Origin: Pelagicoccus enzymogenes
GTDB taxonomy: Bacteria > Verrucomicrobiota > Verrucomicrobiia > Opitutales > Opitutaceae
Assembly: GCF_014803405.1 (NCBI RefSeq)
Contig: NZ_JACYFG010000051.1
Coordinates: 558,001 to 622,000, forward strand
Length of the DNA: 64,000 nt
Direction of reading: 5' to 3'
Position 1 is the stretch's first letter. Each line of letters starts with the position of its first letter. The translations under genes and the position numbers were made by a program. Positions 32,455-35,297 of the stretch are shown in pieces. Under the pieces are notes generated by a model. The model was not told where the DNA came from. It did not search any database and saw only the letters and a program-made list of their open reading frames with translations.

Positions 32455-32854
32455 GTGGACGCGAAATCGTTGATGAGCTACCAAGGTCTGTCCTTGGCGG
32501 TATGGGGGATTGGCCGTTGTTGTGGGCCGCGAGTCGGTGCCCGATTGCTTCGTCACAAGGACATCAGGCTGACTTTCGAGGCCTACACAGTAAAACAAGC
32601 CCCTGCCTATTCGCGAAGCCTTGATGGGGCTTCCGTCGCTGGCAAAACGTAGAGGCGCCCAGCTTGGCGCATCTACTTTGGTCTCATAGGGTCAAATCGA
32701 GTCTCAGCCTGTCTCATTGGACAGGCCTGAAACCGATTTGAAAGACCTTGATTACGAGTCGGTTAGACGTCTTCTGTCTAGCCTTGTCTCGGGCGGTCAA
32801 ATGGTGGAGGTGGCGGGAGTCGAAGGGATTGTTGGTGTGTCACTTTATTCCTAA
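32455..32854 (+). pseudogene. Decayed tyrosine recombinase (phage-type integrase), C-terminal remnant
   Basis: Remains of a site-specific integrase. The first frame (to 32652) contains RLLRHKDIRLTFEAYTVKQA, matching the box II region near the active-site tyrosine of phage integrases. After a stop and frame change, a second frame through the direct repeat at 32802-32824 gives VSGGQMVEVAGVEG and ends at 32854. Integrase genes in these elements typically have such a tail where their 3' end overlaps the attachment site. The catalytic domain upstream is missing, so it is non-functional. Confidence 0.65.
32802..32824. repeat. Attachment-site copy (left), 23-bp direct repeat of the tmRNA 3' end
   Basis: Twenty-three bases starting TGGTGGAGGTGG are identical to 34938-34960, the 3' end of the tmRNA gene. 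Together the two copies bound the AbiE segment. It lies inside the 3' end of the integrase remnant. Confidence 0.85.
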
Positions 32855-33021
32855 ATATACACCGAACGTTATCCATTAGCTACTTATACATTTAGTTAAG
32901 TGTGCAGAAATGACTCTAAACGCATCTTTCTGAAAATTATCAGGCACAAAATCGGCAATTGCCAACCTACTTTGATTCCCTTCCTGCGAGAAGCCTCAAT
33001 GGCCTGATAGGATTGCAGGAG
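32825..33021. other. AT-rich 3' end of the AbiE island
   Basis: Nearly 200 bases with clearly lower GC than the rest of the window (for example tatacaccgaacgttatccattag). No gene was seen here. The composition break at the repeat supports recent insertion of this segment. Confidence 0.5.
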
Positions 33022-34047
33022 CTATCCATTCAGCGTCGATTCCGCTTCTCGTAGCGTATCCAAAATTTCCTCAAACGGTGGCGGGGTTCTGAAAAACATC
33101 TGCTCCATCGCCTTGTAGTCCTTCTTGAGGTTTTCGATAGCTTCCGGCCCAGGTAGCAAACGGAAACTTCCCCGTTTCGCGGTCTCATAGTTCGCCCACG
33201 AGGTGCGGAAGAAGCGGGACTTGTGTGCCACTACTCGCTTTAGCAGGTCGTCGTTCTCGAGCGCTTTCTTGCAGATCGGATTTCGCCAAAGCGCGGCGAA
33301 GTCTGCGTAGTGACGCGAGAAGCGGTCGCGTTGTCTCGGACTGGGACGGTGATACTCCGCGTGCAGGATGGTCGCTTTCTCCCAGAAGGTACGTTCGATT
33401 TCGAGGGCTACGACGTGAGCCTGGCAATCCTCGAAATGCCCGGGCGCGAGTTCGTCGACCATGGCGGAAACCTTGCGGCATCCCGTGGGACGCTGGTCGG
33501 TGAGCGAGCCAAACTCCAGTTTTACCCAAGGTGGAATATATCCGCTGTCTTTGGCGTTCCGGTCAGTTGGGTAGTGAAACAGCAGGACAGGCGAGTGAGT
33601 GGCTCCCTCCAGTTCATAGCTTAGCCAGGATTCGCCGTCTTGCCGCTTGCCGATACGTTGGGTGATTTCGTCCTCGAGGAGCGGCTTGAGTTGATCCTCG
33701 ACTACGCTCGCGCAAATCGCCTGCAGTTGTTCCACCAGCTTTATACGTCTCGTATTCGAAAGGCCGATCGCTTCGAGCTCGCTTTCCTCGCAGCCAAGAA
33801 ACCCAGGATCTACCGACAGATCGATGTCTTCGGAAAACCGCTGGATCGTGTTGTAGACTTTCGACAGGGAGGTGCCGCCTTTGAAGACGCAGTTGTCAGC
33901 AATCGGTTTGGCGTGAAAAAGGATACCGAGCATCCAGCAAACCCAGAAATCCTTTTCAACGATGGTTGTATCGATTCCTTGGGTACCTTGGTATTGCTGA
34001 AAATAGAGCCGCCGCTCACTGGCGGGCAAGGTGGCGAAGGCGTTCAT
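33022..34047 (-). CDS. AbiEii-type nucleotidyltransferase (toxin of type IV toxin-antitoxin system)
   Basis: A 341-residue protein of the AbiEii/AbiGii toxin family, a nucleotidyltransferase thought to modify a nucleotide- or RNA-related target. Family motifs: VEKDFWVCWMLGILFHAKPI, the nucleotidyltransferase signature VFKGGTSLSKVYNTIQRFSE, then DIDLSV, and a C-terminal helical region with SRHYADFAALWRNPICKKAL. The ATG at 34047 overlaps the end of the AbiEi-like antitoxin gene by ATGA, so the two are translationally coupled with the antitoxin first. The frame is open upstream but antisense to the antitoxin. Abi systems often defend against phage; here it sits on a tmRNA-targeted island. Confidence 0.85.
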   Translation of the reverse strand: MNAFATLPASERRLYFQQYQGTQGIDTTIVEKDFWVCWMLGILFHAKPIADNCVFKGGTSLSKVYNTIQRFSEDIDLSVDPGFLGCEESELEAIGLSNTRRIKLVEQLQAICASVVEDQLKPLLEDEITQRIGKRQDGESWLSYELEGATHSPVLLFHYPTDRNAKDSGYIPPWVKLEFGSLTDQRPTGCRKVSAMVDELAPGHFEDCQAHVVALEIERTFWEKATILHAEYHRPSPRQRDRFSRHYADFAALWRNPICKKALENDDLLKRVVAHKSRFFRTSWANYETAKRGSFRLLPGPEAIENLKKDYKAMEQMFFRTPPPFEEILDTLREAESTLNG

Positions 34048-34661
34048 TCTACCGTCCCTTTCGTTTGGGCAATCGCGCGCAGGTGCGGACGCATCCATGC
34101 CGGAGCGAGGCGAAGGTCGCTGATGAGCTGCTTGGCTTGCCGCTCGTCGATCGACTTTGCGATAGTGGCCACGCTTCGTTCGCTTACGCTGTCCTTGCCC
34201 ATGTAGCGAAGGGCTTCGACGATCAAACCTGACATGCGGTCGGCCGCGGCAACGCGTTTCGGGGCTACGTGCTTTAGCTCGATCTCTAGTTTGCCAACCT
34301 GGACTTTTCGATTGGGACCATCCGATAGAAATACGATACGAGCAGGGACCTGTTCGGAGAGGTGGAGCAGATTCGCAGCATAGGCCCCCGTGGGGAGCAG
34401 GCGAACTTGGTCGCGCCCCTTCAATGCATCGACGATGGTCTCGATCGAGGGCGTCAGCTCCCCGAGGACGGGATGCGTTTGAGGGTAGGTGTAGAGTCCC
34501 CGTCCAATCCGTTTGATGTCTCCGGCTTTCACGTGACGCGACAAGGCCTTGGCGATGGCCGTCCGCTCTCCGAGATCGGCGAAGTCTGCGGTAGTCCAAA
34601 CAGAACCCATCCCTTTTCCTCGTATGCGGCTAATTAACTTTTTATCAATGGATTGCGTCAC
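34044..34661 (-). CDS. AbiEi-type antitoxin / DUF6088 family protein
   Basis: A protein of about 205 residues and the likely antitoxin and regulator of the AbiE pair. An N-terminal winged helix-turn-helix is visible (TTADFADLGERTAIAKALSR, HVKAGDIKRIGRGLYTYPQT), then the AbiEi/DUF6088 effector region (VRLLPTGAYAANLLHLSEQV, PARIVFLSDGPNRKVQVGKL). The start is uncertain. GTG 34661 gives the family N-terminus SIDKKLISRIRGKG. ATG 34610 has the better RBS (gaggaaaaggg) but would lose part of the domain. An inverted repeat lies just upstream, suitable as its own operator. Confidence 0.8.
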   Translation of the reverse strand: MTQSIDKKLISRIRGKGMGSVWTTADFADLGERTAIAKALSRHVKAGDIKRIGRGLYTYPQTHPVLGELTPSIETIVDALKGRDQVRLLPTGAYAANLLHLSEQVPARIVFLSDGPNRKVQVGKLEIELKHVAPKRVAAADRMSGLIVEALRYMGKDSVSERSVATIAKSIDERQAKQLISDLRLAPAWMRPHLRAIAQTKGTVE

Positions 34662-34678
34662 GAAAGTCGACTGTAATA

Positions 34679-34708
34679 TGTCACAAAAAACTATACTTTT
34701 TCGTGACA
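34679..34708. promoter_or_regulatory. Inverted-repeat operator upstream of the AbiE pair
   Basis: Arms TGTCACAAAAA and TTTTTCGTGACA surround an AT-rich core containing CTATAC, which read on the minus strand gives GTATAG, a possible -10 box. A third half-site GTCACGAAA lies at 34659-34668. The arrangement fits autorepression by AbiEi, a known behaviour of this family. Confidence 0.55.
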
Positions 34709-34937
34709 CAATGCTTGGTTCTTAGGGGCGACGCAAGAAAGATTAGCAGTGAGCCCGAGGGGGGGCGGAGGGAACGGATCTGGTGTCGTTGCGAGGGACT
34801 GACCCGCATTGGCTAAACCTGCCCTCGCATCCGTCTAGAACAGACTCATTGCCCGACATTTGCCAGATCCAACCACTGCTCAAGAGGTGCAAACACATCT
34901 ACTGGTATGCAGATCAGGCTGTTTAGATGAATACAAG

Positions 34938-35297
34938 TGGTGGAGGTGGCGGGAGTCGAACCCGCGTCCCTCGAGCCTTCACATAAGGCGTCTACATGTT
35001 TGTTTTCGTTTTTGATCTCGCTCCGCAGTCGCGACGAAACCGCGCTACTTTTGAAGCCAGCCGCTTGGTGAAGTACGGCCGAGACGCAAGTGGCGCCCAT
35101 TCCCGGCTATGCTCGCTGGTCGTCGCTCCGCACCGCCTAGCGAGTATCGGCGGGGGAACGTAGCGCTATATTTAAGCAGCTAGAGGCATTTCTTCATGTG
35201 TGCCATTTGTGTTTTTGATAGACGATTTAAGAGGCCAACTATCATCCTCTACATGCAGCCAGATGCTCCAACTTGAGGTCGAATCCGGAACACCCCC
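34938..35297 (-). ncRNA. ssrA: tmRNA (ssrA)
   Basis: A 360-nt transfer-messenger RNA that rescues stalled ribosomes and tags the unfinished protein. The 5' end GGGGGTGTTCCGGATTCGAC pairs with the 3' end CACCTCC-A-CCA to give a 7-bp acceptor stem with one G-U pair. The TpsiC arm GGGTTCGACTCCCGC is intact and CCA is encoded. The tag reading frame lies at 35172-35219 and ends EEMPLAA before TAA; the exact resume codon is not certain. The 3' end is duplicated at 32802-32824, showing that this gene served as an integration site and was rebuilt intact. Confidence 0.93.

Follow-up and report, generated by a model that had tools for sequence, protein, structure and literature searches.

A probably decayed, integrase-free island carrying AbiE genes at the tmRNA gene of Pelagicoccus enzymogenes

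Beside the transfer-messenger RNA (tmRNA) gene ssrA of Pelagicoccus enzymogenes lies a 2.1 kb segment that carries an AbiE toxin-antitoxin (TA) pair and is enclosed by two copies of the 3′ end of ssrA. It sits in a 64,000-nucleotide stretch of the genome, which we refer to as the window (contig NZ_JACYFG010000051.1, positions 558,001 to 622,000). The segment is probably a decayed site-specific island of the cis-mobilizable element (CIME) type, the inner member of a tandem at ssrA whose outer member survives as the broken 3′ end of a tyrosine-integrase gene.

The duplication of the last 23 bases of ssrA, reported in a preliminary description of the window, is exact, and its two copies are the only ones found at up to three mismatches, both in the window (0.00 expected, 100 shuffles) and in the 6.2 Mb genome (60 contigs, 95.9% complete; reversed-pattern control 0). 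Copies at many chance places, which the same description had held would speak against insertion, were not seen, and the 23-mer is not common elsewhere in the genome. As this core of the attachment site (att) contains the CCA end, it corresponds to the T-arm/acceptor 3′ end of the tmRNA, and identity between the copies ends at exactly 23 bp on both sides. The displaced 3′ fragment lies downstream of the tmRNA gene in the same orientation and the gene itself is restored, the arrangement of a tDNA island.

On the far side of the displaced core is the wreck of an integrase gene (Table 1). Positions 32597-32824 (+) encode 76 amino acids, carrying an in-frame stop, that are 69.7% identical (tblastn, 1.9e-26) to residues 351-426 of the 462-residue integrase at ssrA in a congener, G002; a second piece in another frame, 32530-32589, matches the integrase of a further congener, G007 (45% over 20 amino acids, not significant alone), and we take it to resemble the H..Y end of tyrosine recombinases. 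Over its first 230 bp, core included, this left flank is 80% identical (blastn) to the sequence after ssrA in G002, where the integrase gene is intact (PF00589, 1.8e-18), adjoins the tmRNA gene and reads through its 3′ end. Because the wreck abuts the repeat at 32802, the order is that of a tandem, tmRNA - core - AbiE segment - core - integrase wreck. The compact island bounded by a repeat that had been described earlier therefore stands as an att-bounded unit with AbiE cargo, but its repeat at 32802 doubles as the inner boundary of another integrase element, now wrecked (32530-32824). When the G002 integrase was searched against the whole genome at E ≤ 1e-20, only the wreck was found (67%, 1.0e-25, stops present; 6 of 12 candidates scored). 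The genome holds eight PF00589 loci, whose best E with three integrases of the family found at ssrA as queries is 1e-6, against 1e-57 or lower among six loci of that family in the same comparison, and the eight therefore lie outside the ssrA family. The genome yielded no functional partner integrase of this family, and an intact integrase open reading frame (ORF) in or overlapping the island is absent, the only trace being the broken remnant outside the left core.

Table 1. Features of the AbiE segment and its surroundings, in window coordinates
Feature	Position	Strand	Evidence or remark
Broken 3′ end of tyrosine-integrase gene with a frameshift and a stop, which runs into the displaced core	32530..32824	+	
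Position +127 of the integrase remnant, place of the proximal arm in G002, G005 and G007	32654..32674	-	Position weight matrix score -2.0; arm not recognisable
Displaced att core, exact copy, joining AbiE segment to integrase remnant	32802..32824	-	
AbiE segment, 2113 bp between cores	32825..34937		
Second copy of operator half-site TGTGTCAC	32836..32843	+	11 bases from displaced core
Degenerate, one-base-gapped match to distal arm motif	32901..32920	-	Score 15.1; 1 of 319 background windows as high; suggestive
abiEii toxin gene, nucleotidyltransferase, 341 amino acids, intact	33022..34047	-	PF08843 3.8e-37; PADLOC 7.8e-97
abiEi antitoxin gene, 221 amino acids, GTG start as listed, intact	34044..34709	-	DUF6088 7.7e-43; AbiEi_4 1.1e-5; PADLOC 2.8e-67
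Promoter/operator palindrome TTGTGTCACGAAAAAGTATAGTTTTTTGTGACA	34679..34711	-	Alignment; largely conserved in two homologous loci, L069 and L070
tmRNA-proximal att core, 23 bp, 3′ end of ssrA	34938..34960	-	
tmRNA gene (ssrA), tag GTHEEMPLAA	34938..35297	-	ARAGORN; Rfam RF00023, 150.9 bits

The two AbiE genes occupy most of the segment, and the remaining ORFs there overlap them in other frames. Both genes are on the minus strand in one operon with a 4 bp overlap, and the AbiEi/AbiEii pair first described between the repeats is confirmed by Pfam, PADLOC and the gene coordinates, with Pfam and PADLOC strongly backing the AbiE name. The NCBIfam AbiEi equivalog NF047376 scored 21.8 bits against a cut-off of 150 and AbiEii matched no NCBIfam model at E ≤ 0.001, the pair therefore representing a divergent subgroup whose name rests on Pfam and PADLOC. 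The AbiEii motif FKGGT.LSKV..I.RFSEDIDL is invariant across the six aligned homologues, and its GGT...EDIDL portion is presumably the nucleotidyltransferase motif. Relative to the homologous locus L070, from Pelagicoccus mobilis, nonsynonymous (dN) and synonymous (dS) divergence were 0.15 and 1.5 for AbiEii (dN/dS ~0.10) and 0.11 and 0.77 for AbiEi (dN/dS ~0.14), whilst relative to L069 dN/dS was 0.06 for AbiEii and 0.12 for AbiEi; the four comparisons span about 0.06-0.15, and these low ratios place the pair under purifying selection. The AT-rich stretch noted earlier is real (40.6% G+C against 57.1% in the window) but short, being confined to 32825-33021, and the AbiE genes themselves have 55-56%. 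The claim that the segment holds no intact integrase was borne out, as nothing inside it matched a panel of 13 integrases; integration or transfer genes were likewise not seen inside, the transfer genes not having been profile-searched and the overlapping other-frame ORFs not scanned.

Comparison of ssrA flanks in relatives, proposed earlier as a check, supports insertion. Among eight genomes of the genus (G000-G007, G000 being the genome with the AbiE tandem), six have an element or remnant at ssrA, with two integrase types between them, and two (G001 and G004) have a single core copy, with flanks too diverged to be the same empty site. G002, G005 and G007 carry integrase elements between two cores, measuring 5.0, 32.8 and 6.2 kb from core start to core start. 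The elements of G002 (L045:3822-8885) and G007 (L043:4192-10431) are bounded by exact 23 bp cores and their integrases match PF00589, that is, they are tyrosine recombinases; the former also encodes a SIR2-like protein (SIR2_2) and a Rep-like protein with a weak REP_ORF2-G2P match, below the curated cut-off, the latter a GmrSD_N protein and a similar Rep-like protein with a still weaker match. In G003 and G006 the integrase-like gene is of another kind (74% mutual identity) and starts 49 and 68 bp after the tmRNA gene, with the second core on another contig. Core identity extends over 23 bp in the window, over 24-28 bp in G002, G005, G007, G072, G083, G114, G142 and G159, and over 31 and 32 bp in G006 and G003; the window core is thus nearer to those of G002, G005, G007 and G072 (24-27 bp) than to those of G003 and G006, although this is a weak discriminator. 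Insertion of the AbiE segment by an integrase of the G003/G006 type is less likely given cores of 31-32 bp as against 23 bp here, and no trace of that type was found in window positions 25001-40000 at E ≤ 1e-3.

Two further observations concern the DNA beyond the displaced cores. A terminator-like GC hairpin with a T run, recognised by eye, directly follows the displaced core in G002 (L045:8886), G006 (L165:8851) and G003 (L166:7536), as would be seen if the terminator of the tmRNA gene had been displaced outward. An empty-site argument from distal flanks (G001 against G005, G004 against G007) was dropped, the shared stretches resembling, by eye, dispersed GC-rich repeats, and a 3.5 kb distal flank of G002, tried against nine relative loci and the window, matched over no more than 63 bp, in G006.

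The AbiE module itself has a wider and different distribution. Among the seven congeners, G004 alone has it whole, at 78% identity over the whole length and not on the contig that bears its tmRNA gene; as identity and span equal those of L070, G004 is probably Pelagicoccus mobilis. The pair was thus not seen at the same place without the direct repeat, the situation that the preliminary description had named as contrary to its proposal. DNA similarity stops at the module borders in L069 and L070, and what P. mobilis and K14 share with the window is the AbiE module and not its flanks. A search for the same AbiE pair at other tmRNA genes, suggested earlier as a check, did not find it: among the best 80 of 532 relatives, with flanks of up to 10 kb and many contigs shorter than that, 0 of 80 AbiEii loci had a tmRNA gene in the DNA examined. 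With the G004 pair also away from the contig of its tmRNA gene, the idea of AbiE as a tmRNA-specific passenger is unsupported. A plasmid search returned 74 records, none covering 80% of the query, and in the 20 listed the match is confined to a short part of abiEii. In P. mobilis the AbiE pair (L070:9331-12306) adjoins an integrase-like gene with 27-34% identity to those at ssrA in G003, G006 and G187, and no att repeat is evident at that locus.

In an even sample of 200 family genomes from a larger group we looked for further core-bounded intervals. The core pattern occurred in 107 of them, and in 12 at least two cores lay no more than 33 kb apart on one strand of a contig, which makes 13 intervals. 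Five intervals contain an integrase (G002, G005, G007, G072 and G083), whilst in the other eight (G000, G159, G187, G025, two in G178, G114 and G142) no tyrosine integrase was found, a result in which divergent integrases could be missed. Because the PF00589 genome search left the second-type integrases at ssrA in G003, G006 and G187 unlisted, the absence of an integrase also rests on panels of 9 and 13 integrases and on reading of the ORFs in G114 and G142. The G142 interval may not be an element, since its ORFs look like ordinary long genes. Four of the eight integrase-free intervals (G025, G178 and G187) lie on stretches without a tmRNA gene, which in G178 and G187 is on another contig, so these are linked to ssrA by their core only. 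The G187 interval (L161:2732-5638, 2.9 kb), in which no integrase was found, holds Fic and T5orf172 genes; its distal arm, at -86, is canonical, and a site at +188 resembles an arm (arm sites are described below). Another contig of this genome, C623, carries an ssrA-family integrase, 51% identical to that of G005, with an arm site. The G178 contig encodes PIN, HipA_C and HipA N-terminal proteins, one HipA gene lying beyond the last core. Tandem ssrA cores with similar flanks and no integrase found are those at L163:693-6716 and L162:1035-4401, the G178 contig with its HipA and PIN proteins among them, and paired ACCCGCT repeats lie inside three of their five ends.

The ends of these intervals carry a motif that may mark where the integrases bind. 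Nineteen ends were compared, and six arm sites were chosen by eye before being aligned, with leave-one-out scores of 11.6-26.6. A motif like TTGTGAGTCTATTTGTGCGCA lies in a 24 bp block that starts 86 bp before the core in G002, G005, G007, G114 and one end of G187 (G187a) and 85 bp before it in G083; the best score among the other 13 ends was 9.1 (G187b), and the 95th percentile of background 200 bp windows was 6.4. Across 252 family genomes, motifs like TTGTGAGTCTATTTGTGCGCA with at most one mismatch occur at 17 places in nine genomes (reversed control 0; none in the P. enzymogenes genome itself). Four of these places adjoin ssrA cores (one each in G002 and G187, two in G005); the others lie elsewhere, and several of them are in or near ssrA-family integrase genes. 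The same motif recurs at +127 from the proximal core in G002 (score 9.3), G005 (33.1) and G007 (16.3), with weaker sites at +103 in G072 (15.8) and +188 in G187 (18.3), and no proximal arm was found in G114 (-2.9) or G083 (2.1), though both have a distal arm. We read the motifs at -86/-85 and +127 as putative arm sites of the ssrA integrase family. The degenerate match in the AbiE segment (Table 1) scored 16.2 with an earlier model, for which the maximum of 80 background windows was 17.5.

The history that we propose would begin with an element whose own tyrosine-integrase gene overlapped att at its 3′ end and which inserted at the 3′ end of the tmRNA gene. A second, AbiE-bearing element would then have recombined into the same 23 bp core beside the tmRNA gene, giving the order tmRNA - att - AbiE - att - integrase element, and the tmRNA would have stayed functional because the element restores its last 23 bases. 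To judge from its remains, deletion would since have reduced the outer element to about 300 bp, a piece of its broken integrase gene, and the AbiE element would have lost, or would never have had, an integrase and a proximal arm. The repeat and the wreck are plain to see, whilst the order of the insertions, the integrase used by the AbiE element and the loss of its own integrase are what we infer. AbiE systems are known for stabilising the DNA that carries them or for phage defence, and the pair, acting in addiction or against phage, probably keeps the segment in place. Without the arrival of an ssrA-family integrase, the segment can probably not move in the present genome.

A decayed island of this type is favoured by the att-bounded integrase elements that stand intact at ssrA in three congeners, by AbiE flanks that are not shared with P. 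mobilis or K14, and by properties of CIMEs, among them that both att cores are kept and that a related integrative element is in tandem, here as a wreck only. Several results weigh against it. The far att copy of the outer element was not found, so that it is the integrase wreck that carries the tandem; among the genomes compared there is no strain-level empty site for the AbiE insertion; and core lengths are nearly continuous (23-28, then 31-32 bp). At the distal end of the window segment the ungapped arm score is low (3.6, or 3.2 in a later model) and the gapped arm model was chosen after inspection, no proximal arm is present (best 1.1 ungapped, 6.1 gapped), and no paired direct repeat was found at the distal end (the best had 3 mismatches in 10, and 182 of 300 shuffles did equally well). 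Nor, in 100 family genomes with the three best candidates scored in each, did the ends of the AbiE segment match anything outside its own genome.

That the AbiE segment never had an integrase and is a non-autonomous cassette, inserted in trans by an ssrA-family integrase acting on core and arms, is possible but on balance doubtful. Integrase-free intervals between ssrA cores do recur (8 of 13), the Fic cassette of G187 keeps a canonical distal arm and the arm-like +188 site in a genome with an ssrA-family integrase on another contig, and the window segment has its degenerate distal arm; but this segment has no recognisable proximal arm and no paired repeats, a sister cassette is absent from the 100 family genomes, and among the eight intervals four are on stretches without a tmRNA gene and that of G142 may not be an element. 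The segment had been introduced as either mobilised in trans or left over from a larger element, and both a site-specific island and a remnant it appears to be, but the lack of a recognisable proximal arm and of an intact ssrA-family integrase in the genome favours decay over mobilisation in trans. A broader version of the same idea, in which ssrA in this family is an open cassette array of small integrase-free TA and defence cassettes with core and arms, moved in trans by the integrases of larger elements, seems to us unlikely; its examples would be AbiE here, Fic in G187, and HipA and PIN in G178, and decay accounts for the window better than does a cassette array served in trans. We also think it unlikely that one element was duplicated in tandem and then suffered two deletions, with AbiE remaining from the inner copy and the 3′ end of the integrase gene from the outer: in core length and arm resemblance both pieces agree with a single integrase family, but a tandem duplication and two large deletions are required, and the tmRNA-proximal end of the AbiE segment has no trace of an integrase. 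Least credible by far is that the two cores are a chance or functional repeat with no integration involved, for which no support was found and which we reject given 0.00 copies expected at up to three mismatches, uniqueness in the genome, an integrase remnant reading into the copy, and the same architecture intact in three congeners.

A decayed CIME-type island of this kind has published counterparts, of which the ssrA islands of Dehalococcoides are a close precedent. As set out in the study of these islands (PMC3146451), they lie in tandem between ssrA and 20 bp repeats of its 3′ end, the dsiB integrase gene overlaps attL at its 3′ end, and 15 of 31 islands have no integration module and are termed possible cis-mobilizable elements. 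The window shares with them the tandem at ssrA, the repeats of the 3′ end and an integrase gene overlapping att. Dehalococcoides has serine recombinases (DsiB) and reductive dehalogenase cargo, whereas the window has a tyrosine-integrase remnant, AbiE and a 23 bp core (PMC3146451); the remnant is homologous to the PF00589 tyrosine integrase of G002 and is not a large serine recombinase of the DsiB type. In the account of CIMEs that we draw on (PMC5704250), such elements are without integration and transfer genes, keep attL and attR and stand in tandem with another element, and accretion is described. The window segment resembles these in its two cores, its missing integrase and its tandem partner, and differs from the elements of that account in having a partner that is itself wrecked; mobilisation of the segment, and an ancestry among integrative and conjugative elements (ICEs) or integrative and mobilizable elements, would here be presumptive (PMC5704250). 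The Islander description (PMC4383910) finds that, as a target, tmRNA is enriched beyond every type of tRNA, and it discards any island that neither contains nor overlaps an integrase ORF. The window has the tmRNA gene, the displaced 3′ fragment in the same orientation and the length of more than 2 kb of such tDNA islands, but with only a broken integrase piece at its edge it would probably be rejected under the rules given there (PMC4383910).

An AbiE system on integrating DNA has been described before. In what is reported of a type IV TA pair on an ICE (PMC11062541), AbiEi binds promoter palindromes as well as a site at the origin of transfer (oriT) and helps to stabilise the ICE. The window resembles that case in having an AbiEi/AbiEii pair on integrating DNA but, unlike it, has no ICE or oriT identified, and stabilisation would apply to the window by analogy with that report (PMC11062541). 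Judged by title, the papers found on verrucomicrobial tmRNA islands and Pelagicoccus integrases contain nothing on this locus. Both the remnant type and the tmRNA hotspot are already recognised, and an AbiE-bearing case at ssrA adds another example. What the Pelagicoccus case contributes is an ssrA hotspot in the Verrucomicrobiota that retains TA cargo after integrase loss, and an integrase family whose readable core and putative arms (+127, -86) allow one to judge, from the ends of an integrase-free island, where it came from.

The abiEi promoter carries the palindrome of Table 1, and the same region holds a longer inverted repeat (34652-34665/34699-34712). By analogy with the AbiE family, the palindrome would fit autoregulation, with AbiEi repressing its own promoter. 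The half-site TGTGTCAC occurs only twice in the 64 kb, in this operator (34703-34710) and at 32836-32843 (2 against 0.70 expected; at least two in 14 of 100 shuffles). More speculatively, AbiEi may also contact the att end, for which this 8 bp match, noticed post hoc, is a candidate site. On the other side of the tmRNA gene, the roughly 10 kb between it and a gene at 45257 (35298-45256) are absent from that place in the congeners G001 and G003, where about 0.6 kb separates the counterpart of the 45257 gene from the tmRNA 3′ end that follows it; by our reading, this stretch appears to encode a sigma factor, a FecR-like protein, a TonB receptor and others.

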